Source: Sinorhizobium fredii (lineage in GTDB: Bacteria; Pseudomonadota; Alphaproteobacteria; Rhizobiales; Rhizobiaceae). From it: DNA of 64,000 nt. The stretch spans positions 1,550,001-1,614,000 of the forward strand of contig NZ_CP024310.1 of assembly GCF_002944405.1 (NCBI RefSeq), read 5' to 3'. The position numbers were made by a program, and so were the translations under genes. Positions 3,695-16,001 of this stretch are shown piece after piece. Each line of letters begins with the position of its first letter. The stretch's first letter is position 1. The notes beneath the pieces are model-generated. The model did not search any database, was not told the origin of the DNA, and saw nothing but the letters and a program-made list of their open reading frames with translations.

Positions 3695-4732
3695 TCAGTT
3701 CAACTCGATACGTTCACCCGTTGCCGCAGCGCGTTTTACCGCATCGACTACCCTCAAGGTTTCGAGCCCCTCACGCCCGCTGACAAGCGGCGGTTCGTCT
3801 CCGCGGATCACCTTGCAGAATTGCCTGATCTGCAGAACGAGCGGGTCCTCGTCGTCTACCTCGATACGCGTTTGGTCAAATGGCTGCCACCAACTCCGTT
3901 TACCAGGATTGCGCCAGACCTCGAGCGACGGAACAGCCAACGACCCGTGCGTTCCTCCGATCATGTAACAGGATTGCTCGGTTTTGGGGTAAGCCGGATT
4001 CTCTCCGGTTGTCATCTCCCAGCTCCACGGTGCGACCACCGCGTCCGAGACTGTCGCAGTTCCCAAAACTCCATTCTTGAACTCGATCAGGATCACAGCC
4101 GTTTCCTCAACTGCGTTGCCGCGCACCGCGTTGGACTCGCGTGCCTGAACCGCAGCCACATCGCCGAAAAGGTAGCGCAGATTATCGACGTCGTGGATGA
4201 GATTGAGGAAAACCGGCCCCGCACCGCGCTCACGACGCCACGAGATGTCGAAGTACTCGTCGGGCTTGAATAGCCAAAACATCGCATTGACAACAAGAAC
4301 GCGGCCGAGCTTCCCGCTTTCGATGATTTCCTTTGCCTTCTGCGTCACCGGATTGTGTCGGCGATGATGGCCGGTCAATAGAGGAACACCTTTTTCCTCA
4401 GCCGCTGCGATCAGCTTTTCCCCGGATATAATGTCGTCGGCGATAGGTTTCTCGATGAGTGCGGGAACGCCGGCTTCAACGGCTTCCAACCCGTTCTGGA
4501 CGTGAGCCTGGTTGGGCGTAGCCACGATTATCCCGTCAGGTCGGTCTGCGGCAATCATGTCCGCGAAGCTCGTAAACCACTTCACGCCGGCTTCCTTGGC
4601 AATAGTCTCGCCAACCGGCGTGGGATCGACCACCGCAATGAGTTGCGCCAAGGGCTCGGCCAGGACGTGTTGAATATGGCGCTTACCGATGAGGCCTGCG
4701 CCAAGTACGGCCAGCTTAACCCGTTGGGTCAT
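3695..4732 (-). CDS. Gfo/Idh/MocA-family oxidoreductase
   Basis: The 345-residue product starts at ATG 4732, 8 bases after the aroQ stop. A TTG two codons earlier is less likely. The N-terminal Rossmann fold carries AVLGAGLIGKRH near residues 8-19. The family EKP motif (ALIEKPIADD) lies near residue 95, and GHHRRHNP follows around 120. These mark an NAD(P)-dependent dehydrogenase of the family that includes inositol and sugar dehydrogenases. It is the last gene of a leftward operon of dehydroquinase, shikimate dehydrogenase and ABC importer genes. I infer that it oxidises a cyclic polyol or hydroxy acid, perhaps a quinate-like or inositol-like substrate, feeding that pathway. Substrate specificity cannot be read from the sequence. 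Confidence 0.85.
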   Translation of the reverse strand: MTQRVKLAVLGAGLIGKRHIQHVLAEPLAQLIAVVDPTPVGETIAKEAGVKWFTSFADMIAADRPDGIIVATPNQAHVQNGLEAVEAGVPALIEKPIADDIISGEKLIAAAEEKGVPLLTGHHRRHNPVTQKAKEIIESGKLGRVLVVNAMFWLFKPDEYFDISWRRERGAGPVFLNLIHDVDNLRYLFGDVAAVQARESNAVRGNAVEETAVILIEFKNGVLGTATVSDAVVAPWSWEMTTGENPAYPKTEQSCYMIGGTHGSLAVPSLEVWRNPGKRSWWQPFDQTRIEVDDEDPLVLQIRQFCKVIRGDEPPLVSGREGLETLRVVDAVKRAAATGERIELN

Positions 4733-4739
4733 GGTCAAC

Positions 4740-5189
4740 TCAGCTCTTGCTCGCCGCCTTGATCATTGTCGCGGCGCGCCGGATGCCAAGCTGGTATCCT
4801 TCTGTTCCAAGGCCGCAGATCACGCCGTCCGCGCGGTGCGAAACGAACGAATGGTGTCGGAAGCTTTCGCGCTTGTGCACATTGGAGATGTGGATCTCGA
4901 TCACAGGTCCTTCAAATGTGTTCAGAGCGTCGAGGATGGCGAGTGAGGTATGGGTAAAGGCTGCCGGATTGATGACGATGCCCGCACCGTCCTCGCGCGC
5001 CTCATGAATCCAATCGATGATCTCGTATTCCCGGTTGCTCTGATGAAAGCGGATTTCATGACCGAGTTCGGCTGCCAGTTTGCGGCAGTCCGCCTCTACG
5101 TCTGCGAGCGTTTCATGCCCGTAGATGTGCGGCTGGCGTTTGCCAAGCAGGTTGAGGTTTGGTCCATTGAGAACGTAGATCAGGCTCAT
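4740..5189 (-). CDS. aroQ: Type II 3-dehydroquinate dehydratase
   Basis: The 149-residue length is typical of the small dodecameric type II enzymes, which interconvert 3-dehydroquinate and 3-dehydroshikimate. All signature blocks are present: NGPNLNLLG (8-16), the flexible-loop Tyr23 in [22 protein letters not shown] (48-62), [10 protein letters not shown] (73-82) with Asn74, and [17 protein letters not shown] (98-114) with the catalytic His100. The start ATG at 5189 has AAGGA upstream. Because it lies between a tautomerase gene and an oxidoreductase gene in an operon with an importer, a catabolic (quinate-use) role is more likely than a housekeeping one. The biosynthetic copy should lie elsewhere in the genome. 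Family assignment is secure; the catabolic role is inferred from context. Confidence 0.93.
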
Positions 5190-5222
5190 AGCATAGTGTC
5201 CTTCTCGAGCACGTCGTCCTGG

Positions 5223-5591
5223 TCAGACGAACGTGATTGCTTGAACAGCAAAATCAGGGTCCGACTCGTAGAGATCTGCGCGCAAGCCGAGCCTTCCCGC
5301 TTCGAGAGCAGGCGCGGCGATCGTCCGCGCGGCGTCGAGAACGGCAGTGAGGAGCTTCTGCTTGGTCTCTGCAGTACGACCCGGTGCCATCCGCACGATG
5401 ATTTGGATGAAATGACTATCGACATGCTCATCGCCCACGCAGGAGTGTGTCGCCTCCCGCGCAAGCGTGCGCACGGCGGAAGGTTTCACTAGGCCGCCGT
5501 CGCGAACGCAGCGATGCACGGTCAGCGTGAGCCGGTCCATGGCTACGTGCTCGCCTGCGCCCCGACTATAATCGATGATGATATGCGGCAT
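5223..5591 (-). CDS. 5-carboxymethyl-2-hydroxymuconate isomerase-family tautomerase
   Basis: The 122-residue product begins MPHIIIDYS. The residue after the initiator is proline, the catalytic amino-terminal base of the tautomerase superfamily. Length and end-to-end pattern (HFIQIIVRMAPGRTAETKQ near residue 60) fit the CHMI (HpaF) family. In homoprotocatechuate degradation that family isomerises 5-carboxymethyl-2-hydroxymuconate before hydration and aldol cleavage. A GGAGAG ribosome site precedes the ATG. Homologues of the next two pathway enzymes (HpaH and HpaI types) are encoded in the divergent operon of this locus, so the three probably act in series on a ring-cleavage product. The exact substrate is not known. 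Confidence 0.82.
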   Translation of the reverse strand: MPHIIIDYSRGAGEHVAMDRLTLTVHRCVRDGGLVKPSAVRTLAREATHSCVGDEHVDSHFIQIIVRMAPGRTAETKQKLLTAVLDAARTIAAPALEAGRLGLRADLYESDPDFAVQAITFV

Positions 5592-5604
5592 TGGGATCTC
5601 TCCA

Positions 5605-6465
5605 TTAAGCCGACAGGCGGCACAAGTCCATGAAGTGACGGGACATGCGCTCTGCGTCGGGTGCTATCCCGGTGAACAATTCGAAAGCCGCTGCTGCCTG
5701 GTAGACGGTCATGCCGCCGCCACGAAGGGTCCGGCAGCCTTTTCTTTCGGAGAGAGCAAGGAGCTCTGTGACGAGCGGCATATAGACGATGTCGGCGACC
5801 CAATGCCGTGGCAGAAGCCATTTTGGGTCGATCGGCAAGCCAGGATGGCTCTTCATACCCGTGGGCGTCGCGTGGATAAGGCCGTCCGCGGAGCCCAGGG
5901 CGCTGCCGACATCCGTCGTGGCGCGCGCACAACCCCTTGAGAACCGATCATTCAACTGCCCAGCCAAGTTTTCTGCCCGTGTCGGATCCTGGTCGAAGAT
6001 CGATAGTCTCTCAATACCGAGCTTCATTGCGGCATGCGCCACGGCGACACCGGCGCCGCCGGCGCCAAGCAGGACGGCATGCGACTTCGCGACGTCCGGA
6101 AGGCCGCGCCGGAAATTCTCGTAGAAACCGTACCAATCAGTGTTGTGGCCGATCCTCTCGCCGTCACGAAACACCACGGTGTTGACCGCACCGAGCATCT
6201 CTGCATCCTCGGAAAGGCGATTGAGGTGGGCGATCACCGACTGCTTGCACGGATGTGTAATGTTGCTCCCGGCAAAACCGCGCCGCTCCTCCTCGTCTAG
6301 GAGGTCCGGCAGCGCCGAGGCAGGAAGGCCTCGCTCGGCCAGGTCGAGAAGCTCGTAGCGGTAATCGAGGCCCTGATGTCGAGCTTCCGTTTCGTGGAGA
6401 GCCGGGGACTTCGACATTTGAATGTCGGCCCCGATCAGTCCCACGAGGAATTTCTTGTCGCGCAT
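5605..6465 (-). CDS. Shikimate/quinate dehydrogenase, AroE family
   Basis: The 286-residue protein has the AroE two-domain layout. The substrate side carries SKSP (18-21), NITHPCK with catalytic Lys74, and NTDWYGF with Asp110. The nucleotide side carries GAGGAG (134-139). The second Rossmann strand ends in SIFDQD with an acidic residue near 158, where biosynthetic NADPH-dependent AroE usually has an Arg-containing NRT motif. By family knowledge an acid there favours NAD+, as in catabolic quinate/shikimate dehydrogenases. GAAGG precedes the ATG. It sits 13 bases from the tautomerase gene and 18 bases from the ABC ATPase gene. I infer oxidation of quinate to 3-dehydroquinate or shikimate to 3-dehydroshikimate. 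A biosynthetic AroE cannot be excluded without assay. Confidence 0.88.
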   Translation of the reverse strand: MRDKKFLVGLIGADIQMSKSPALHETEARHQGLDYRYELLDLAERGLPASALPDLLDEEERRGFAGSNITHPCKQSVIAHLNRLSEDAEMLGAVNTVVFRDGERIGHNTDWYGFYENFRRGLPDVAKSHAVLLGAGGAGVAVAHAAMKLGIERLSIFDQDPTRAENLAGQLNDRFSRGCARATTDVGSALGSADGLIHATPTGMKSHPGLPIDPKWLLPRHWVADIVYMPLVTELLALSERKGCRTLRGGGMTVYQAAAAFELFTGIAPDAERMSRHFMDLCRLSA

Positions 6466-6483
6466 TGGTATCGCCTTCGGACG

Positions 6484-7245
6484 TCAGTGGTGGGCAAGGA
6501 TTTCGCCGAGGAAGGTTTTTGTGCGTTCGTGCTTGGGAGACTTGAAGAAGACCTCCGGTTCGGCCTCTTCGACGATTTCTCCGGAGGCCATGAAGATGAC
6601 GCGGTCAGCGACCTGACGGGCAAAGCCCATTTCATGAGTGACACAGATCATCGTCATGCCGTCACGGGCGAGGCCGATCATGGTGTCGAGCACCTCCTTC
6701 ACCATTTCGGGATCGAGGGCAGAGGTCGGTTCGTCGAAGAGCATGACCTTCGGCTCCATGCAGAGCGCGCGAGCGATGGCAACGCGTTGTTGTTGCCCGC
6801 CGGATAGCTGCGCAGGATACTTTTCAGCCTGGTCAAGGATTCGAACGCGTTCGAGATATTTTCGAGCCAGTCGCTCTGCGTCAGCGTGGCTTGTGCCTCG
6901 AACACGCATCGGGGCGAGTGTACAGTTCTGAAGTACGGTCATGTGCGGGAAGAGATTGAAGCTCTGGAAGACCATTCCCACTTCGCGCCGTATCGCATCG
7001 ACGGATTTGGTGCTTCCGTCCAGTACCTGACCCTCGACGACAATCTTGCCGTCCTCGATCGTTTCGAGGGCATTGATGCAGCGGATTAACGTCGATTTTC
7101 CGGAGCCTGACGGCCCACAGAGGACGATTTTTTCGCCTTTGCGGACCGACAGACTGATGGATTTCAAGGCATGGAAAGCGCCGTACCACTTCTGCACATC
7201 CTCAAGGGAAATCAGCGTCGGTTGATCGTTTGCGGAATTGAGCAC
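6484..7245 (-). CDS. Polar amino acid-type ABC importer, ATP-binding subunit
   Basis: This is a complete ABC ATPase of the GlnQ/HisP group. It has Walker [10 protein letters not shown], a Q-loop ([16 protein letters not shown]), the signature LSGGQQQR, Walker B VMLFDEP and the H-loop histidine in VTHEMGFA. I place the start at a GTG at 7245, because GGAGG lies 5-6 bases upstream. An ATG at 7257 adds four residues but has no ribosome site, and longer in-frame extensions would run into the solute-binding protein gene. It lies directly downstream of that gene and of two permease genes, forming a full importer. By family the substrate is a polar amino acid or small hydrophilic acid. Its place among quinate/shikimate-type enzymes suggests that the substrate of this operon is imported. 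Confidence 0.92.
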
Positions 7246-7264
7246 GGAACCCTCCATTTGGGCT

Positions 7265-8089
7265 TTAATTGACGGTGAACGGGATGTTCGGAATGGATTC
7301 AGGGAACTGCGGCAGATCGATCGCCATCCACTTCTTGGTGATGGCGGCAAGCTCACCATTGGCCTTGATCTTCTCGATGAAGGCGTTGACGGCTTCGTTC
7401 CAGTCCTTCTCGCCGAGACGGGTCCCGACTCCGTTGTAGGTCGTCAGAAAGTTAATCTTGCGCTCAAAGGTGCCGGCACTCGCCGCATCCAGCCGCTGAC
7501 CATAGAACTGGTTGCCGCCAACCGCCTTTACCTGTCCGGAGATCAAAGCCTGGATGGTTGCGGCGTCATCATCAAACCGGCGAACCGTTGCGGTGGATCC
7601 GACGGCGTCCGTTACTGCCTTATCCTGCGAACTGGACTTCGGAACGCCGATCTCCCATCCCGCAACGTCTTCAGGCTTCGTAACCGTGTCGGATTTCGCG
7701 GCATAAAGCGAAATCGTGTTGGCGGCGTAGGGCTTGCTGTATTGAATTGATTTCGCTCGCTCTTCCGTCATTGCCATCGTTGCGAACAGGATGTCGACTT
7801 TGCCGGTCGTTAGCGCGGGAATGCGGTTGGCAACGGCGAGCGGCTGGAATTGAACCTTAACGCCCAACTCCTTTGCAAAAAGGTTGGCGACGTCAGCGTC
7901 GAAGCCGTCCTGCTGGCCGCTCGTATTGACGAAACCCCAAGGCGCGTTGTCGCCCTGGATGCCGACGACCAGCGTGCCCTTTGCCTTGATTTCTTCTACA
8001 GTTGCCGCAGAGGCGGCGGCAGCGCCGACGGTTGTGAAGGCAACAGTTGCCAGTGCAAGTCCGAGAAAATTCCGACGATTGGTATGCAT
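7265..8089 (-). CDS. ABC transporter solute-binding protein, family 3, with Tat-like signal
   Basis: The 274-residue protein starts at ATG 8089, preceded by GGAGGAGG. Upstream in-frame extension would overlap the permease gene and is rejected. The N terminus has a twin-arginine-like motif ([11 protein letters not shown]) and an alanine-rich hydrophobic segment ending ASAATVEEI, so export, possibly through Tat, is likely. The mature part is a typical SBP_bac_3 protein: [14 protein letters not shown] near residue 47, [16 protein letters not shown] near 71, [15 protein letters not shown] near 110. It is the binding component for the adjacent ATPase and permeases. The ligand is unknown; from context I infer a shikimate-, quinate- or aromatic-acid-like compound, although the family mostly binds amino acids. 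Confidence 0.9.
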
Positions 8090-8130
8090 AAGTATGCTCC
8101 TCCTCCAGGGTTTTGCTTCCAGCGAAGCGG

Positions 8131-8781
8131 TTAGCGGGCGGCTTTCGCCATCCGTTTTTCGAGGCCACTTCCGGCATGGGAGAGGGGCCAGCAAATGATG
8201 AAGTAGATTGCGGCGACGATCCCGAAGACGAGCAGCGGACGATAGGTCTGGTTTGAAATGATCTGGCCGGCGCGAGTCAGTTCAATGAAGCCGACGATTG
8301 CTGCTAGCGACGTGCCCTTGATGAGCTGGACAAGGAAGCCGATCGTGGCCGGCATCGAGATTTTCAGGGCCTGCGGCAGGATGACGTCTTTCATCCGCGA
8401 GACATAATGCAGACCGAGGGCGTTGGCGGCTTCCGTCTGGCCCTTCGGCACAGCCTCGATGGAGCCGCGCCAGATCTCTCCCAGGAAAGCACTGGCATGG
8501 AGCGTGAAGGCGATTGCGACCGCGATCCACGCGTTGACCTCGATGCCCAACAGAGCAACGCCGTAATAGACAACGAAGAGCTGCATCAGAAGGGGCGTGC
8601 CCTGGAAGATGCCGATATACCCTGCGGTGATCGTCCGGAAGACCTTCTTCTTCGAGGTGCGCAGCAGCGCTATCAGGATTCCGAATATACCCCCACCGAT
8701 GAAGCCCACGATCGCGAGCAACACGGTCCACTTCAAACCCTGCATCAAAAAGAAGAATTCATTTTCGCCGATGGGACCCAT
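8131..8781 (-). CDS. Polar amino acid-type ABC importer, permease subunit
   Basis: The 216-residue inner membrane protein has about five predicted hydrophobic helices (for example LLAIVGFIGGGIFGILIALL near residue 20). The EAA loop that contacts the ATPase appears as EAANALGLHYVSRMKDVILP (residues 117-136). The length and the FQGTPLLMQLF segment are typical of the HisM/GlnP family. The start ATG has GGAGG upstream. It is paired with the second permease gene 10 bases away, so the importer is likely a heterodimeric channel. Confidence 0.92.
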   Translation of the reverse strand: MGPIGENEFFFLMQGLKWTVLLAIVGFIGGGIFGILIALLRTSKKKVFRTITAGYIGIFQGTPLLMQLFVVYYGVALLGIEVNAWIAVAIAFTLHASAFLGEIWRGSIEAVPKGQTEAANALGLHYVSRMKDVILPQALKISMPATIGFLVQLIKGTSLAAIVGFIELTRAGQIISNQTYRPLLVFGIVAAIYFIICWPLSHAGSGLEKRMAKAAR

Positions 8782-8790
8782 GGCTGCCTC

Positions 8791-9459
8791 CTATCGCGTC
8801 GGGTAGTTGAAGTAGTGGCGAGAAATGAGGGCAAAGAGGCCCATCATCAGCGTCGAAATAACCAGGTAGATTGCGGTCACCGTGAAATAGACTTCGAAGC
8901 TGCGGAAGGTGTCAGATTCAATGCGCTGAGCGGCCGAGGTCAGTTCGTAGGCGGCGATTGACGTGCAGACAGACGTTGTCAGTGTCAGCATGATGAACTG
9001 GCTTGTGAGCGAGGGATAAATCGCCCGCAGCGCCGGCTTGAGCACGATGAGCCGGAAAACGTCCGCCTTGTGCAGACCAAGTGCGAAACCTGCCTCGATC
9101 TGGCCGCGCGACACGCTCTCGACCCCGCCTCGGATGATCTCGATTGCGTACGCCCCGCCATTGATGCCGAGGGCAATGATCGCAGTGACGGTCGGATTGA
9201 GGCGTATGCCCATGAGAGGAAGGGCAAAATATATGAAGAAGATCTGCACCAGGAATGGCGTATTACGCACGACCTCGACGAAGAGGATCACGGGAGTGCG
9301 TGTCATCTTGCTCTTGGAAGACCTTGCAACAACGCCCAGGAGTCCTATGACGAGTGCGAGGACCATCCCAGCCAACGCAAGGCCAAGCGTTCCAAGCGAG
9401 GCCCATAGCAATTCCGGGGCGCGGTCGAGGACCGCACCGAAATCAAACGTATAAGTCAT
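8791..9459 (-). CDS. Polar amino acid-type ABC importer, second permease subunit
   Basis: The 222-residue membrane protein is homologous in layout to its neighbour. It carries VVRNTPFLVQIFFIYFALP near residue 62, the EAA loop EAGFALGLHKADVFRLIVL (121-139) and a C-terminal membrane helix near 195-210. A very strong GGAGGGAGGA site precedes the ATG at 9459. The order permease, permease, binding protein, ATPase in the direction of transcription is common for this importer class. Confidence 0.92.
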   Translation of the reverse strand: MTYTFDFGAVLDRAPELLWASLGTLGLALAGMVLALVIGLLGVVARSSKSKMTRTPVILFVEVVRNTPFLVQIFFIYFALPLMGIRLNPTVTAIIALGINGGAYAIEIIRGGVESVSRGQIEAGFALGLHKADVFRLIVLKPALRAIYPSLTSQFIMLTLTTSVCTSIAAYELTSAAQRIESDTFRSFEVYFTVTAIYLVISTLMMGLFALISRHYFNYPTR

Positions 9460-9505
9460 GTAAGACTTCCTCCCTCCGACCGGCTTACGCCGCGTCGGCG
9501 CCGGA

Positions 9506-10327
9506 TCAATGATCCGGTTTCAAAATTCCCAGTGCGCTGTCATGCAGATGTTTTAGATGTGCCTCCGGGTCCACCGGCCCGACGAGTGGCACTTCAACCG
9601 AGATAGCAGCGCCGTATTCGGTTGCCGCCCAGAGGTCCTTCAATGGCAATTCGCCTTCTCCAGGAGCGAGCCTACCGCTTCTCGCCTCGGCGATCATTGC
9701 GTCCGTTGTTTTGGGAGCAGGCCCGCGGACGTCGCAAAGCTGGACGTGTTTTACCTTCCCTGCATTTCCGCGAAGCTCGTCGATCGAAGCGCCGTTTCGG
9801 AAGAAGTGAATCCCATCAACGAGGGCACCGGCGTTCTCTGCTCCACAGGAATTCACGACCGCAACACTGTCGCCAAAGGTTCTTACCGTCCGCCAGCCCA
9901 TGTTTTCGATGTCGACTGACATTCCATATCGCGCCGCGAGGGCGCAAAACTCAGAAAGGTTTGTGGCAAGACGGTCGCCGTCTCGATCATCGCCGCAAAC
10001 ACTCAGCCGGCGCGCTCCTATGTTCGCAGCGGCTGCCACGGTCGCCTCATGGGAGGCCGCAACGAAGCTCTCATCGATCACGAAGAACTCGATATCAAAC
10101 ACCTTGATGCCTTCGCCATCGGCAATTGCCTTGAACTCCTGGGCACTTTGGCTGCCCACCGGCAACTCGTAGAAAGGGGCTCCGGGAAAGGCGGGGTGCA
10201 GACGCAGACCTATCGACGCAAAACCCGCCCGAGCAGCTATCACGGCGAATTCTTTGGGCGGCAGCGCGATGGATGAAAAATGCGCCACGCCCAGTTCAAG
10301 GCCCGGTCTTGGCTTCGCGACGGTCAT
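9506..10327 (-). CDS. TIM-barrel sugar phosphate isomerase/epimerase-like enzyme (candidate 3-dehydroshikimate dehydratase)
   Basis: The 273-residue product belongs to the xylose-isomerase-like TIM barrel (AP_endonuc_2) superfamily. Visible marks are GLELGVAHFSSIALPP near the start, FDIEFFVID near 75, MSVDIENMGWRTV near 150 (metal-binding Glu region), KHVQLCDVRGP near 205 and ISVEVPLVGP near 240. The superfamily includes sugar isomerases and the AsbF/QuiC-type 3-dehydroshikimate dehydratases that make protocatechuate. With dehydroquinase and shikimate dehydrogenase genes in the same operon, the dehydratase role is attractive but inferred. The start is ATG 10327, whose first base overlaps the GntR stop codon (TGATG), and AAAGGGGA provides the ribosome site. 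Confidence 0.78.
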   Translation of the reverse strand: MTVAKPRPGLELGVAHFSSIALPPKEFAVIAARAGFASIGLRLHPAFPGAPFYELPVGSQSAQEFKAIADGEGIKVFDIEFFVIDESFVAASHEATVAAAANIGARRLSVCGDDRDGDRLATNLSEFCALAARYGMSVDIENMGWRTVRTFGDSVAVVNSCGAENAGALVDGIHFFRNGASIDELRGNAGKVKHVQLCDVRGPAPKTTDAMIAEARSGRLAPGEGELPLKDLWAATEYGAAISVEVPLVGPVDPEAHLKHLHDSALGILKPDH

Positions 10328-11064
10328 CACAAGATCCCCTTTGTCGCGAGGTGATTGCGCAGATTGGTTCCCGTGCGGTGAATATGTTGACGCAACATAT
10401 CGCACGAATAGTCCAGATCCCGCGCGACGGCTCCCTGAGCGATCTCGCTGTGCTCCTGGCTGACGTTGCGGTCACCCGACGTGCGGGTCAGAAACACCCG
10501 GCGATAACGGTCGTTGAGATTAAGAAGCAATTTGCAGAAATGGAGCAGGATCGGCTTCCCGCAGCCAGATATGAGTGTCAGATGAAATTCGCGGTGGAGC
10601 TCTTCCCAGCGCTCCAGTGTCTCTGGCCGAGCCGCGTCACGCTCGGTGCGGTTAAGGCGATGCAGCGCGCGCATGACGTTGCCTTCCCACTCCACATCGC
10701 CGAGCCGCATGGACTCGCGAAGCGCAAAGACTTCAAACTCTTCGCGCAGGGTGGTGATCTCTTCCAGATTGGCCAAGGAAATTGATGAAACGCGGTAGCC
10801 GCGATTGTCCTCGAACTCCACTAGACCGTCCGATATCAGCCGCGCCAACCCTTCACGCAGCGGACTGAGGCTTACGTTGAACGTCTTGCGCGCCTTGTCG
10901 AGATTGATCTTGCTGCCGGCCTGAAGCTCGCCGGAGATGATCGCTTCACGCAGACGGGATGCAAGCTGGCTCCCAATTGTGTTTTTGCCGTCATCGAGAA
11001 AGCCAGAAGACGATGGAGCATCTTCTGCCGTCGGAGCAAATGCGCCGTCGTCATCCGGTATCAT
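10327..11064 (-). CDS. GntR-family (FCD subfamily) transcriptional regulator
   Basis: The 245-residue protein starts at ATG 11064 behind GGGAGGA. An N-terminal winged helix (about residues 30-95; SQLASRLREAIISGELQAGS, then LSPLREGLARLISDGLVEF) is followed by a helical FCD ligand-binding domain (about 105-235) with histidines typical of metal-supported acid binding (HREFHLTL, QEHSEI, RQHIHRT). It is the first gene of the leftward operon and diverges from the dioxygenase operon. Each of the two promoters has a near-identical 15-bp element in its spacer. It therefore most likely represses both operons and its own gene until a pathway acid binds. Confidence 0.92.
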   Translation of the reverse strand: MIPDDDGAFAPTAEDAPSSSGFLDDGKNTIGSQLASRLREAIISGELQAGSKINLDKARKTFNVSLSPLREGLARLISDGLVEFEDNRGYRVSSISLANLEEITTLREEFEVFALRESMRLGDVEWEGNVMRALHRLNRTERDAARPETLERWEELHREFHLTLISGCGKPILLHFCKLLLNLNDRYRRVFLTRTSGDRNVSQEHSEIAQGAVARDLDYSCDMLRQHIHRTGTNLRNHLATKGIL

Positions 11065-11108
11065 TGTTCCTCCCAAAGCTCCTGAACTAATTGTCGATGA
11101 TCGATATA

Positions 11109-11129
11109 ATAAACGATTATTCGTGTCAA
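11109..11129 (-). promoter_or_regulatory. Promoter -35 and operator of the leftward catabolic operon
   Basis: On the minus strand TTGACA (11129-11124) is followed directly by CGAATAATCGTTTAT (11123-11109), which fills most of a 17-base spacer before a weak TATCGA-like -10. The 15-mer matches the element in the divergent promoter in 14 of 15 bases, so I read it as an operator for the GntR protein. Repression would follow from overlap with the polymerase contact region. Confidence 0.6.
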
Positions 11130-11264
11130 TCTGAGTGCACTGAAATCTGCAAAAAAGCCAAGCCTATCTTCCCTGATGCAGATAATACGTAATAATATCA
11201 ACGCATCGCGTGCCGCTGCGCTTCTTCTCTCGGCTTATTGGCGCCGCGATAATGTACGGAGCGC

Positions 11265-11293
11265 TTGACAGATAATCGATTATTCGGATAGTC
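11265..11293 (+). promoter_or_regulatory. Promoter and operator of the dioxygenase operon
   Basis: TTGACA (11265-11270) and an imperfect -10 (ATAGTC, 11288-11293) are 17 bases apart. The spacer holds ATAATCGATTATTCG (11272-11286), whose first 12 bases are a perfect palindrome. The same element, inverted relative to its promoter and with one change, is at 11109-11123. The transcript would start about 15-20 bases before the dioxygenase ATG at 11317, whose ribosome site is GGAGGT. Confidence 0.6.
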
Positions 11294-11316
11294 GGGGAAA
11301 TCGGGAGGTAGCCCAC

Positions 11317-12210
11317 ATGGTGATCAAAACTGAGAGCGATCTGACGCCAGCCGTCCTTGCTGTGATGCATCGCACTGAAGACCCCCGCCTGCGAGAAATC
11401 CTTGTGGCGATCGTCAAGCATCTTCATGCCTTCGTGCGCGAGGTTCGACTGACGGAGGTCGAGTTTCGGGAGGCTACAGCCATGCTGAATGAGATCGGGA
11501 AGCTGCATACTGATCACCACAACGAGTTTGTGCTGATGGCGGGTTCTCTTGGCGTGTCTTCACTTGTCTGTCTGCTGAACAATGGCGACAGAGGACAGAC
11601 TGAGACCTCCCAGTCGCTGCTCGGCCCATTCTGGCGCCTCAACTCTCCGCGAGTCGAAAATGGCGGGACGATTATCCGATCCGAAACGCCGGGCACTCCC
11701 TTGTTCGTGCATGCCAAGGTCGTTGACCGCGACGGTAAGCCAATTGCCGGCGCCGAAGTGGATGTGTGGCATGCATCTCCCGTCGGTCTTTATGAAAACC
11801 AGGACCCGGACCAGGCCGAGATGAACTTGCGCGGCAAATTCATGACCGACGAGCAAGGCCGGTTCTGGTTCAGGACCGTCAAGATGGTTGGCTATCCGAT
11901 ACCGGTCGATGGCGTGGTCGGACGCCTGCTCAAAGCTCAGGGACGCCATCCATACCGACCAGCGCACCTGCACGCACTGATCTTCAAGCACGGATACAAG
12001 ACGCTGATTTCCCAAGTCTTCGACCCCAGCGACCCGAACATCGACTCCGATGTTCAGTTCGGTGTCACGGCAGCGCTGACCGGCGACTTCACTCGTCATG
12101 AGGAGCCTCATCCGACCGAAACGGATATTCCTGGTCCGTGGTTCTCGCTCGACTACACCTATGTCATGGAGCCCGGCGAAGCCGTTTTGCCGCGTCCCCC
12201 GATCAAATAA
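11317..12210 (+). CDS. Intradiol ring-cleavage dioxygenase (hydroxyquinol/catechol 1,2-dioxygenase type)
   Basis: The 297-residue protein has the N-terminal helical dimerisation domain of catechol and hydroxyquinol dioxygenases (about residues 20-95), then the beta-sandwich catalytic domain beginning LLGPFW. The four non-haem Fe(III) ligands are visible: Tyr159 (GLYENQ), Tyr193 (VGYPIP), His217 and His219 (RPAHLHAL). The layout fits single-subunit 1,2-dioxygenases rather than the two-subunit protocatechuate 3,4-dioxygenase. It opens the rightward operon opposite the GntR regulator. Intradiol cleavage normally yields a muconate or maleylacetate, yet the next two genes are meta-pathway-like, so the substrate is open. 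A GGAGGT ribosome site supports the start. Confidence 0.9.
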   Translation: MVIKTESDLTPAVLAVMHRTEDPRLREILVAIVKHLHAFVREVRLTEVEFREATAMLNEIGKLHTDHHNEFVLMAGSLGVSSLVCLLNNGDRGQTETSQSLLGPFWRLNSPRVENGGTIIRSETPGTPLFVHAKVVDRDGKPIAGAEVDVWHASPVGLYENQDPDQAEMNLRGKFMTDEQGRFWFRTVKMVGYPIPVDGVVGRLLKAQGRHPYRPAHLHALIFKHGYKTLISQVFDPSDPNIDSDVQFGVTAALTGDFTRHEEPHPTETDIPGPWFSLDYTYVMEPGEAVLPRPPIK

Positions 12211-12234
12211 ATCACAATCAGCAGAGCAAACGAT

Positions 12235-13017
12235 ATGATCACCGAAGAAGAACGCCTGGCCGCGGCAGACGCGCTGCTCAAAGCTGAAATCGAGCGCAAG
12301 CCGATCATACAGCCTAGCGAGACCTACCCGAACCTCGAACTCGAGGACGCCTACCGGATTCAGGCTTTGTGGGCGGAGGCGAGGGTGGCCAAGGGCGCAC
12401 GGATCGTCGGGCATAAGATCGGCCTGACGTCACGCGCCATGCAGATGGCCTCGAAAATGACGGAGCCGGACTACGGCTGCATTCTTGACGATGCGCTTTA
12501 TAATGACGGAGCGCAGATCAAGGCTGACTTGTTTATCAAGCCGCGCCTGGAGGTCGAGCTGGCCTTTGTTATGGGTGAGGATCTCGTCGGGCCCGGCACC
12601 AGGATCTATGACGTCCTGCGTGCGACCGAGTTCGTTGTCCCGGCACTCGAGATTATCGACTACCGGACCGAAGTCCCCCGAGCGATCACCGACACCATTG
12701 CGGACAACGCGGCTTTCGGCGCCATCGTCGTTGGCGGTCGTATAATTCGACCGATGGACATTGATATCCGCTGGGTCGGAGCGACTCTTTCCAAGAACGG
12801 CATCATCGAGGAGTCGGGCGTGTCGGCGGCGATCATGGGACATCCGGCAGCTGGCATCGCTTGGCTGGTCAACAAACTTCATGCTGTGGGCGGTGGCCTG
12901 AAGAAGGGACAAATAGTCCTGGCCGGCTCCTTCACGCGTCCTGTCGATATCGCAAAAGGTGATGTCATTCAGGCCGACTATGGCCCTGTTGGCTCCATCG
13001 GCGTGTCATTCGTGTGA
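12235..13017 (+). CDS. 2-oxo-hept-4-ene-1,7-dioate hydratase-like protein (HpaH/MhpD family)
   Basis: The 260-residue protein belongs to the 2-hydroxypentadienoate/2-oxohepta-4-ene-dioate hydratase family. Visible blocks are GHKIGLTSRAMQ near residue 60, PDYGCILDD near 78, KPRLEVELAFVMGEDL near 100 (metal-binding Glu residues), EIIDYRTEVPRAITDTIADN near 138 and the C-terminal VLAGSFTRPVDIAKGD. These enzymes add water to a dienoate left by meta cleavage, just before an aldolase. It lies 24 bases after the dioxygenase gene and 8 bases before the HpaI-like aldolase gene. A decarboxylase of the same fold is an alternative function. The ribosome site is weak (cagagca). Confidence 0.88.
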   Translation: MITEEERLAAADALLKAEIERKPIIQPSETYPNLELEDAYRIQALWAEARVAKGARIVGHKIGLTSRAMQMASKMTEPDYGCILDDALYNDGAQIKADLFIKPRLEVELAFVMGEDLVGPGTRIYDVLRATEFVVPALEIIDYRTEVPRAITDTIADNAAFGAIVVGGRIIRPMDIDIRWVGATLSKNGIIEESGVSAAIMGHPAAGIAWLVNKLHAVGGGLKKGQIVLAGSFTRPVDIAKGDVIQADYGPVGSIGVSFV

Positions 13018-13025
13018 GGTGCTAG

Positions 13026-13817
13026 ATGGAACATCCTGTCAATCGGTTCAAGCGGAAGCTCCTTGCTGGTCAAAGTCAGATCGGCCTGTGGTGTGGCTTG
13101 CCGGGAAGCTACGCCGCAGAAATCGTCGCGCCTTCAGGTTTCGATTGGCTCCTGTTCGACACGGAACATTCTCCGGCTGACGTTCTGACCGTGCTGCCGC
13201 AATTGCAAGCGGTCGCACCATACGACGTTTCCCCAGTCGTCCGCCCGGCCATCAACGACCCCGTTCTCATCAAGCGTTTCCTGGATATTGGCGTTCAGAC
13301 ACTGCTCATTCCCTACGTTCAGAACGCGGAAGAGGCGAAAGCCGCAGTCGCGGCCGTGCGATATCCTCCGGATGGTATCCGTGGTGTTTCTGCCTTGACG
13401 CGCGCCACTCGTTTCGGCCGAGTTGCGAACTATGCGCAAAATGCGGAACGGGAAATTTGCCTGTTGCTGCAAGTTGAGACGCGGGAAGCGCTTGGCAACC
13501 TCGAGTCGATTGCGTCGGTAGAGGGAGTGGACGGCGTATTCGTAGGACCGGCAGACCTGGCAGCGAGTTTCGGACACAGGGGCCAACCGAGCCACCCGGA
13601 GGTGGTCGATGCAATTGTCGACGCGATTGAACGCCTGAAAGCGTTGGGCAAGCCTGCAGGCATTCTTACCCCGGATGAAAAGTTCGCGGCACGGTGCATC
13701 TCGCTCGGAACACTATTTACTGCCGTTGGTGTCGATGTCGCTGTTCTAGCAAGGGGATCGGAAGCACTCGCCGCACGATTTGCATCTCAGGGAGCGTCCC
13801 ACGATGTCGCAACGTGA
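13026..13817 (+). CDS. HpaI/HpcH-family class II aldolase
   Basis: The 263-residue protein matches the metal-dependent pyruvate aldolases such as 4-hydroxy-2-oxoheptanedioate aldolase (HpaI). It has [10 protein letters not shown] with catalytic His48, Arg73 in VVRPAIND, metal ligands Glu151 ([11 protein letters not shown]) and Asp177 ([11 protein letters not shown]), and the conserved PPDGIRGVS near 114-122. Enzymes of this family split 4-hydroxy-2-oxo acids into pyruvate and an aldehyde. Following a hydratase gene, it completes a hydrate-then-cleave module. GAGGTGC precedes the ATG. The last 14 bases overlap the next gene. Confidence 0.92.
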
Positions 13818-14487
13818 TGAAATCCTTACTGAAATCGCACCGACAGGAGTCATCAGAGCGGCGGTCAACATGTCGAATGCCGCACTTGTCCAACTCGATC
13901 CAGTGACAGGCGTTTTAACAGGGCCGAGCGCGCAGATCGCGATCGCACTTGCGGCAGAACTCGACTGCAGTTTGTCGCTGGTCCGATACGGATCGGCAGC
14001 TGACATTCTTGCGGCTGCCGAAGACAATGAGTGGGACGTTGCATTCATTGCTTCCGATCCGTCACGTGCCGACAGGTTCTCCTTCTCGCCCCCCTATACC
14101 ACGGTGACCGCCAGTTTTCTGGTGTCAGACAGTAGCCCGCTAGGCAGCGTCGAGCATGTCGACGTCAAAGGAGTACGCATTGCCGCCGCCAGAACCGCTG
14201 CGTATACAAAGCAGCTTGAGCGACAGGTTAGAAATGCAATTGTCCTCCATGCCGAAAATCCCGCCTCCGCCCTGGACATGCTTGTATCCTTCCGGTGCAA
14301 TGCGGCTGCGGGCTTGACCGAGTCTCTGTCACGCTTCTGCGAAGAGAATCCAGGTTTCCGCATTGTTGATGGGACATTCTCGAAGGTGCCTCAGGCGATC
14401 GCTGTGCATCGGAGGTGCGTTCACGCTTCAACCTTCCTGTCGGACTTCATCCAACAGCATTGCCGTGCGGGTAAGTTTAGCAATTGA
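13804..14487 (+). CDS. Solute-binding-like protein without signal peptide
   Basis: The 227-residue product (ATG 13804, GGGAGC upstream, overlapping the aldolase 3' end) has the two-lobe pattern of family 3 solute-binding proteins: [14 protein letters not shown] near residue 14, [20 protein letters not shown] near 36, [20 protein letters not shown] near 77-96 and [19 protein letters not shown] near 120. It begins [13 protein letters not shown] with no hydrophobic leader or lipobox, so it should stay in the cytoplasm. It is translationally coupled to the catabolic operon, while the exported binding protein of the locus lies in the other operon. It may sense or buffer a pathway acid, or have adopted an enzymatic role, as a few cytosolic members of the fold have. 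Function is inferred only. Confidence 0.75.
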
Positions 14488-15333: not shown

Positions 15334-15561
15334 ATGAGAACGACCCTGGCGATCGACGATGATGTTTTGATCGCAGCGAAGGCGATGGCAGCCCAGCAGC
15401 GTCGAAGCGTCGGCGAGGTCATTTCCGAGCTGGCGCGGCGTTCTCTGCGCCGGCCGCGCGGTGGCGGCGAGCGCAATGGAATTCCTCTCCTGTCACCCCG
15501 GCCGAATGCGCCACCGGTGACGCTCGAAATCGTCAACGCCTTGCGTGACGAACTGCCGTGA
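15334..15561 (+). CDS. vapB: VapB-type antitoxin, ribbon-helix-helix
   Basis: The 75-residue protein begins MRTTLAIDDDVLIAAKAMAA, the usual RHH/CopG-like N terminus that binds operator DNA as a dimer. RSVGEVISELARRSL follows as the second helix. The Pro-rich C-terminal tail (IPLLSPRPNAPPVTLEIVNA) is the type that wraps around a PIN toxin. GGAG lies about 8 bases before the ATG. Its stop overlaps the toxin start in GTGA, so the two are translationally coupled and probably autoregulated through the promoter just upstream. Confidence 0.9.
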   Translation: MRTTLAIDDDVLIAAKAMAAQQRRSVGEVISELARRSLRRPRGGGERNGIPLLSPRPNAPPVTLEIVNALRDELP

Positions 15562-16001
15562 CTTTCCTGCTCGACGTCAATGTGGTGATCGCCCTAATCG
15601 ATCCGGGTCACGTAGCGCATGATGACGCGCACGAGTGGTTCGCGTCCAATGGACAGACCGCGTGGGCCACTTGCCCCACTACCGAAAATGGTGTCATCCG
15701 GATCGTCGGAAACCCCAAATATCCCAATTCTCCCGGTTCGCCGTCACTCGTGATGGAGGTAGTCGGAAAATTGCGGTCGCTCCCCGGTCATAGCTTTTGG
15801 CCGGATGATGTGAGCCTTGTCGGGTCAGGTGATATCGCTCCCGCGAAGATCCTGACTTCGGGGCAGGTAACTGACACCTACCTACTTGCCCTCGCCAAGG
15901 CGCGTGGGGGCAAGCTGGCGACATTCGATCGCAAGCTATCAGCAGCGGCGGTCACAGGGGGCAATTCCGCCTTGCACCTGATCACTACGAAGAGGTCGTG
16001 A
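15558..16001 (+). CDS. vapC: VapC-type PIN-domain ribonuclease toxin
   Basis: The 147-residue protein starts at a GTG within the antitoxin stop (GTGA). It has PIN-domain acidic residues: Asp6 in FLLDVNVVIALID, Glu43 in CPTTENGVIRI, Asp105 in VTDTYLLALA and Asp123 in LATFDRKLS. This is the pattern of the TA-system VapC subfamily that cleaves tRNA or rRNA in growing cells. The pair sits at the edge of a decayed region, as expected for a stabilising addiction module. Targets cannot be deduced from the sequence. Confidence 0.9.
   Translation: MTFLLDVNVVIALIDPGHVAHDDAHEWFASNGQTAWATCPTTENGVIRIVGNPKYPNSPGSPSLVMEVVGKLRSLPGHSFWPDDVSLVGSGDIAPAKILTSGQVTDTYLLALAKARGGKLATFDRKLSAAAVTGGNSALHLITTKRS

Follow-up and report, generated by a model that had tools for sequence, protein, structure and literature searches.

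An intradiol dioxygenase subfamily joined to HpaH- and HpaI-type enzymes in a conserved Sinorhizobium locus, possibly for the catabolism of hydroaromatic and galloyl-type plant compounds

Introduction

How can an intradiol ring-cleavage dioxygenase supply lower enzymes of the meta type? The question is raised by an 11-kb locus of Sinorhizobium fredii (positions 3695-14487 of the window, i.e., the whole 64-kb stretch of DNA analyzed, C4:1550001-1614000, in a genome of 6.56 Mb), where two divergent operons about 250 bp apart carry quinate/shikimate-type enzymes on the minus strand and an intradiol dioxygenase, an HpaH-family hydratase and an HpaI-family aldolase on the plus strand. Intradiol enzymes open catechol, protocatechuate and hydroxyquinol to muconates or to maleylacetate, compounds that HpaH and HpaI are not known to use. 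A hydroxyl flanking the cleaved bond makes the intradiol product the enol of an alpha-keto acid, with a skeleton identical to that of the extradiol product; a ring with three vicinal hydroxyls would lead to a product of the 2-hydroxymuconate type, the substrate class of the CHMI-family tautomerase, HpaH and HpaI, and with such a ring the paradox would dissolve. With about even confidence, we propose that the locus serves the catabolism of hydroaromatic and galloyl-type plant compounds via intradiol opening of a vicinal trihydroxybenzene, most likely gallate.

Linkage of the two halves across genomes

The contig carrying the locus matches Sinorhizobium megaplasmids, and the 11-kb stretch is present in 13 Sinorhizobium plasmid records (identity at least 94%, coverage 95-100%); Shinella and R. 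ruizarguesonis have the same gene order. Intergenic gaps within each strand range from -14 to +46 bp. A genome scan for dioxygenase orthologs gave the best 80 of 158 loci at 75-99% identity, and the genes of the window were mapped over 120 related loci selected by their dioxygenase homolog, some of which are not independent (L063 and L114 have identical dioxygenases). This set comprises L003-L088 and L094-L132 after exclusion of own-genome or flank pieces that are no dioxygenase loci of the family (L001, L002, L089, L090, L092, L093, L109, L110 and L133), the window itself (L091), a locus from the same record as L005 (L047) and two Sinorhizobium loci (L085 and L108), though both of these carry HpaH.

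HpaH lies within 10 kb of the dioxygenase in 78 of the 120 loci, where it is accompanied by the GntR regulator (77), the TIM-barrel protein (75), HpaI (74), the type II dehydroquinase AroQ (66), the binding-protein homolog SBP2 (60), a Gfo/Idh gene (51, of which 49 are MocA orthologs and two of another type) and CHMI (47), as well as by AroE of the window type in 48 loci and of any of three types in 60. This linkage is beyond chance. The sequence-only reading had asked for a comparison of synteny and would have given way if the operons were unlinked in most genomes; they are not, AroQ being within 10 kb in those 66 of the 78 loci with dioxygenase and HpaH.

Six loci carry AroQ and the dioxygenase on one strand in a single run. 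Five of these (L094, L096, L097, L118 and L119, dioxygenase 59-61% identical) have TIM barrel, AroQ, dioxygenase, HpaH and HpaI all on the same strand, and the sixth, Sagittula sp. P11 (L137), shows the order FCD regulator, TIM barrel, AroQ, Gfo/Idh, dioxygenase, HpaH, aldolase and SBP, with overlaps or with gaps of 6 bp at most. In Sagittula there is a 4-bp overlap between the Gfo/Idh homolog and the dioxygenase gene, and in L096 the two are neighbors. A dioxygenase match of at least 59% identity occurs in 13 of the 247 family genomes (the Asp/Val enzyme of G101 being omitted, and most, not all, of the 13 pocket-typed), and all 13 have a TIM-barrel match at E 1e-42 or better; G172 is the only genome with such a match and no dioxygenase, and 23 further genomes have weaker matches.

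The left and right halves are nonetheless not obligatorily tied, because the right half occurs without AroQ or AroE in two Agrobacterium pAt plasmids (TIM-GntR-dioxygenase-HpaH-HpaI alone) and in strain Kin003 (CHMI-GntR-dioxygenase-HpaH-HpaI-SBP2), and because left-half genes occur without the dioxygenase in G172. A. vitis has TIM-GntR-dioxygenase-HpaH-HpaI plus SBP2.

A dioxygenase clade with an altered pocket

The dioxygenase (11317..12210, plus strand; Dioxygenase_N and Dioxygenase_C domains, PF04444 and PF00775) keeps the iron ligands Y159, Y193, H217 and H219 when aligned to the hydroxyquinol dioxygenase 1TMX. Asp83 and Val251 of 1TMX are replaced in it by Gly76 and Gln247, at positions with substrate-contact roles in 1TMX and in chlorocatechol dioxygenases. 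Gly/Gln is common to all other clade members aligned, and Asp/Val is kept in three hydroxyquinol dioxygenases and in the more distant homologs; a distant intradiol homolog of the S. fredii genome (C1:2946730), probably CatA, has Pro/Ala. Many family members in the 120 rows bear the deposited name 'catechol 1,2-dioxygenase', and the window enzyme scores far below the cut-offs of the NCBIfam models for catechol 1,2-dioxygenase (136.6 and 127.2, cut-offs 392 and 404.4) and chlorocatechol dioxygenase (139.8, cut-off 359.25), and it lacks the hydroxyquinol-type Asp83/Val251 pocket.

Pocket and partner genes go together. The 100 Gly/Gln loci comprise 78 with HpaH, 14 with pca or lig genes and eight with neither, none having BKACE; the 20 Asp/Val loci comprise 17 with BKACE and three without, none having HpaH. 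The same rule holds in four additional named records. In a tree of 94 rows, retained after near-identical ones were thinned, all 69 Gly/Gln rows fall into a single clade (100/96), which is surrounded by Asp/Val rows. The Asp/Val loci look like a hydroxyquinol route, in which an SDR protein would act as maleylacetate reductase and BKACE would cleave 3-oxoadipate.

The SDR gene adjoins BKACE in the ten such Asp/Val loci inspected (L095, L101, L121-L126, L132 and L138). In L069, L128, L129, L131 and other loci of the Bradyrhizobium type, the Gly/Gln ortholog sits between pcaF and pcaHG, and in L130 and L076 it adjoins lig genes instead.

Lower enzymes of the meta type

Downstream of the dioxygenase, HpaH (12235..13017, plus strand) scores 352.8 against TIGR02312, barely above the cut-off of 351.5, and HpaI (13026..13817, plus strand) scores 416.3 against TIGR02311 (cut-off 368.8), both being families of the homoprotocatechuate pathway; a stretch of seven residues present in the solved 2-oxo-hept-3-ene-1,7-dioate hydratase 2eb4 is missing from the window hydratase. 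Neither the extradiol dioxygenase HpaD nor the semialdehyde dehydrogenase HpaE was found among the open reading frames searched in the stretch. The CHMI-family tautomerase, encoded in the other operon (5223..5591, minus strand; PF02962, 69.8 bits, cut-off 26.5), keeps Pro1 (after the initial Met), Arg40 and Arg71 in alignment with CHMI 1otg, and scores 20.2 against the NCBIfam CHMI equivalog, whose cut-off is 215. The idea that the TIM barrel and CHMI substitute for one another is weakened by L067, L083 and RW1, which have neither, and by G172, which has both without the dioxygenase.

The quinate/shikimate half

All genes named in the sequence-only reading were recovered by open reading frame and family searches, together with two that it had not named, Gfo/Idh and SBP2. 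Its statement that maleylacetate reductase, pcaGH and semialdehyde dehydrogenase are absent stands for the open reading frames searched in the window; PcaH is encoded elsewhere on the same contig (C4:523947-525247, 367.6 bits, above cut-off), beside a match that is presumably PcaG.

On the minus strand, AroQ (4740..5189) is a type II 3-dehydroquinate dehydratase by NF003806 (227.9 bits, cut-off 171) and by the equivalog TIGR01088 (189.7, cut-off 169.85). The AroE-family protein (5605..6465; NF009201/PRK12549, 443.7 bits, cut-off 235) has the quinate/shikimate dehydrogenase 3jyo as its best PDB match, and scores 237.9 against the NAD+-dependent quinate/shikimate dehydrogenase equivalog NF010631 (cut-off 515). 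An importer is encoded on the same strand, consisting of a polar amino acid type ABC ATPase (6484..7257; PF00005), a periplasmic binding protein of the SBP_bac_3 type (7265..8089; PF00497), whose N-terminus resembles a signal peptide by eye, and two permeases (8131..8781 and 8791..9459; PF00528 each). The operon also encodes the TIM barrel (9506..10327, AP_endonuc_2, of the dehydroshikimate dehydratase/IolI type) and the GntR/FCD regulator (10327..11064; PF00392 and PF07729).

L005 (18951-24891) carries another AroE-type gene together with a separate set of polar-amino-acid ABC genes, beside MaoC-like and CoA-transferase genes; related clusters are present in L083 (2854-8827), and in Shinella the cluster lies about 7 kb past SBP2.

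The TIM barrel is homologous to a characterized 3-dehydroshikimate dehydratase, being similar to QuiC (5hmq) and about equally to Lmo2234 and IolI. It has Glu141, Asp171 and Glu245, together with Gln196, as matched by residue order and by QuiC numbering to AsbF, for which Glu142, Asp172 and Glu253 are described as metal ligands (PMC9324987). Its step may be either a protocatechuate side branch or an aromatization.

The Gfo/Idh/MocA oxidoreductase (3695..4732, minus strand; PF01408, PF22725 and PF02894 above cut-off) is proposed as the dehydrogenase that would convert 3-dehydroshikimate to gallate. SBP2 (13804..14487, plus strand), an SBP_bac_3-fold protein, follows HpaI and shows no signal peptide in N-termini read by eye; its profile and model are nearest to AncCDT-1 and other binding proteins. 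AncCDT-1 is an ancestral binding protein that preceded cyclohexadienyl dehydratase, and SBP2 could be either a cytosolic sensor or an enzyme with a binding-protein fold.

The proposed route and its ring substrate

Gene identities, linkage, pocket residues and clade are the observations from which every substrate and product below is inferred. The ABC importer would take up quinate or shikimate, AroE would oxidize it and AroQ would dehydrate the product to 3-dehydroshikimate (C7H8O5), from which the Gfo/Idh enzyme (or AroE) would remove two hydrogens to give gallate (C7H6O5), as the formula balance allows. The dioxygenase would cleave gallate to 4-carboxy-2-hydroxymuconate, the enol of 4-oxalomesaconate, or pyrogallol to 2-hydroxymuconate; the CHMI-type tautomerase may ketonize the ring-opening product, HpaH would hydrate it, and HpaI would release pyruvate together with oxaloacetate (from gallate) or malonate semialdehyde (from pyrogallol). 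The elemental balance closes from gallate and O2 to oxalomesaconate, with H2O to 4-carboxy-4-hydroxy-2-oxoadipate, and on to pyruvate and oxaloacetate, and closes likewise for the pyrogallol analogue ending in malonate semialdehyde.

A vicinal trihydroxybenzene is the likely ring class, gallate being the most likely member and pyrogallol the second choice. The chemistry has a precedent in Acdo1p, the catechol 1,2-dioxygenase of the yeast Blastobotrys, which is described as converting pyrogallol to 2-hydroxymuconic acid by intradiol cleavage (PMC9204233). The objection of the sequence-only reading, that the substrates of these partners do not normally come from an intradiol enzyme, holds only for rings that lack a third neighboring hydroxyl. 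Of its two suggestions, a novel opening of the ring followed by hydration and cleavage to pyruvate fares better, and an unusual hydroaromatic substrate is compatible with the reading favored here.

Neighboring genes bear on the choice of ring. The HpaI gene of M. nodulans is followed at 1.5 kb, on the same strand, by the gene for an aromatic-acid symporter (TIGR00895, 419.9, cut-off 418.55), which favors an acid, i.e., gallate. A close homolog of vanillate/3-O-methylgallate O-demethylase (818.9 bits) lies 119 bp past SBP2 on the same strand in Kin003, although vanillate would fit it as well. In R. wittichii RW1 (L135, pSWIT02, Swit_5033-5048), the Gly/Gln dioxygenase and HpaH come after genes for a flavin adenine dinucleotide (FAD) monooxygenase, aldehyde dehydrogenase and benzoylformate decarboxylase, a gene set suggestive of an arylglycolate-type feed; no paper was found in the open-access literature under the locus tags Swit_5040 to 5043. 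The RW1 locus is flanked by transposases.

Two stronger statements on the ring were tried and dropped. Supply of pyrogallol by a UbiD-type gallate decarboxylase is not general, UbiD genes, the only type covered by the search, being present in four of 18 genomes asked and absent from that of S. fredii. The LigJ, LigK and oxalomesaconate-tautomerase neighbors in L076 and L130 do not prove gallate, LigB being present in both genomes and, in G620, only 1.4 kb from these genes. Oxalomesaconate-tautomerase genes also lie beside the locus in L012, L015, L050 and L054, and 9 kb off in G138; such neighbors are weak evidence because the model NF033377 matches 106 of the 247 family genomes, two control genomes (one above cut-off) and an unlinked S. 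fredii gene on contig C1.

More tentatively, and with confidence well short of even, we suggest that quinate and shikimate themselves are burned via gallate rather than protocatechuate, 3-dehydroshikimate being dehydrogenated, the new intradiol subfamily yielding 4-oxalomesaconate and the HpaH and HpaI homologs finishing the route. Gallate-forming activity is described for dehydroquinate dehydratase/shikimate dehydrogenases of Eucalyptus (PMC7752791). Such an intradiol gallate route would be the counterpart of the extradiol one, having arisen from hydroxyquinol-dioxygenase-like ancestors by one Asp-to-Gly and Val-to-Gln change.

Evidence against the proposal and alternative explanations

Several observations weigh against a route through a trihydroxybenzene. 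The single Gly/Gln clade nested among Asp/Val rows means that the match of pocket and partner is one inherited switch, not many independent events; Fisher values computed for the match disregard this and carry no weight. The 14 Gly/Gln loci without HpaH and HpaI adjoin pcaF, pcaHG or lig genes (the ten named ones being Bradyrhizobium), and eight more, some at contig ends, have neither these nor HpaH. CHMI is found only in loci of the Rhizobiaceae type and of Mesorhizobium, including once, in G172 (L139), beside AroQ, TIM barrel and AroE without the dioxygenase, 1.6 kb from the contig start. Near 27 of the 78 HpaH loci, of which 16 carry AroQ and some have short flanks, no Gfo/Idh gene was found. 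Five of the 18 genomes asked have LigB, and three of these five (G029, G031 and G232) carry HpaH-type loci. On the side of chemistry, HpaI is not known to act on the tertiary alcohol that gallate would yield; the known aldolase for 4-carboxy-4-hydroxy-2-oxoadipate is the RraA-like LigK/GalC, and the secondary alcohol from pyrogallol would be nearer to the known reaction of HpaI. Acdo1p is described as not converting gallate (PMC9204233), and PcaHG of P. putida is described as converting pyrogallol to 2-pyrone-6-carboxylate (PMC6628648); an intradiol enzyme therefore need not release the open acid, and ring closure is a risk for the scheme.

The TIM barrel may produce protocatechuate, which would leave its tie to the dioxygenase unexplained, and HpaH loci carry it more frequently than AroQ (75 versus 66). 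PcaH scores above cut-off in 16 of the 18 genomes asked, S. fredii included, so protocatechuate has a separate outlet. These points feed the strongest alternative, which we regard as possible if somewhat doubtful: a single regulator governing two chemically separate pathways, of which the left one is an ordinary route from quinate and shikimate to protocatechuate for PcaHG encoded elsewhere, and the right one degrades another plant aromatic (gallate or pyrogallol) that accompanies quinate, as in galloylquinates. The resemblance of the TIM barrel to dehydroshikimate dehydratase, the right halves without AroQ and AroE in Agrobacterium and Kin003, and the left-half genes of G172 all agree with it. 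It is opposed by the six loci in which TIM, AroQ, (Gfo/Idh), dioxygenase, HpaH and HpaI run on one strand, by the persistence of the TIM barrel with the dioxygenase in the inspected Agrobacterium plasmids (Kin003 excepted), and by G193, a 98% complete assembly in which AroQ, dioxygenase, HpaH and HpaI are present with neither PcaH above cut-off nor LigB.

The other explanations change the substrate of the dioxygenase. That it is a hydroxyquinol 1,2-dioxygenase, with HpaH and HpaI acting on something else, seems improbable: PnpC and hydroxyquinol dioxygenases are the solved structures closest to it in sequence, its nearest relatives (Asp/Val) adjoin BKACE and SDR genes fitting a 3-oxoadipate-type product, and Bradyrhizobium orthologs adjoin pcaF, yet Asp83/Val251 is replaced across the whole Gly/Gln clade, maleylacetate reductase, the partner in the hydroxyquinol pathway, was not found among the open reading frames searched in the window, and hydroxyquinol would by established chemistry give maleylacetate, not an alpha-keto enol acid. 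Least probable, to our mind, is that the enzyme takes protocatechuate or another substrate by unforeseen chemistry while HpaH and HpaI have drifted to new reactions. This would directly explain the TIM-AroQ-dioxygenase runs if the TIM barrel yields protocatechuate, yet 3-carboxymuconate, by established chemistry, has no alpha-keto function for HpaH and HpaI, and 16 of the 18 genomes asked already have PcaH.

Relation to known systems

Hydroxyquinol 1,2-dioxygenases (1TMX, PnpC 3N9T and 8R2X) share fold family, domain order and iron ligands with the window enzyme, but have Asp/Val in place of Gly76/Gln247; the partners of the window enzyme are HpaH and HpaI, whereas its Asp/Val relatives have BKACE. 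The usual partner of hydroxyquinol dioxygenases is maleylacetate reductase. The homoprotocatechuate meta pathway (hpa) has in common with the locus HpaH and HpaI above NCBIfam cut-offs and a CHMI-family gene, but HpaD, HpaE and HpaBC are not among the open reading frames of the locus, which is predicted to open the ring in the intradiol rather than the extradiol manner. The gallate pathway gal/lig (GalA-B-C-D, LigJ/LigK) would pass through like intermediates, but uses a LigAB-type dioxygenase, hydratases of its own and an RraA-like aldolase in place of an intradiol enzyme, HpaH and HpaI; no LigB domain (PF02900), the mark of gallate dioxygenases of the GalA/LigAB type, was found in the S. fredii genome. 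Quinate/shikimate utilization (qui, qsu) is alike in its AroE-type dehydrogenase, AroQ, dehydroshikimate-dehydratase-like TIM barrel and importer, to which the locus adds the linked intradiol/HpaH/HpaI module and an extra Gfo/Idh enzyme. Acdo1p differs in being a broad yeast enzyme, with catechol described as its substrate of highest affinity (PMC9204233).

What appears to be new is an intradiol subfamily joined to lower enzymes of the meta type, in a cluster that is conserved among bacteria of soil and plants and probably serves the use of plant compounds resembling quinate and gallate; searches of the open-access literature gave no paper that treats the cluster or an intradiol dioxygenase for gallate in bacteria. 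If the proposal is true, the intradiol opening of vicinal trihydroxybenzenes would gain a family recognizable by sequence, with the downstream route ready, and the label 'catechol 1,2-dioxygenase' on many deposited members would need correcting. A 2019 paper on syringol conversion calls for a dioxygenase that turns pyrogallol into a further metabolizable product (PMC6628648), and a 2022 yeast paper states that the enzyme for further breakdown of 2-hydroxymuconic acid was not identified (PMC9204233). The paradox of an intradiol enzyme with meta-type partners can be reduced to a simple enzyme assay.

In one stretch of L140 (G232:C36), TIM-like, FAD dehydrogenase-like, LigB, FAD-type, HpaH-like (44%) and HpaI-like (45%) open reading frames lie together and may form an extradiol equivalent of the route proposed here. 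Past the left end of the S. fredii locus, the window encodes an AraC-family regulator (803-1798), and at 15558-16001 a VapC-family PIN-domain protein (TIGR00028, above cut-off).

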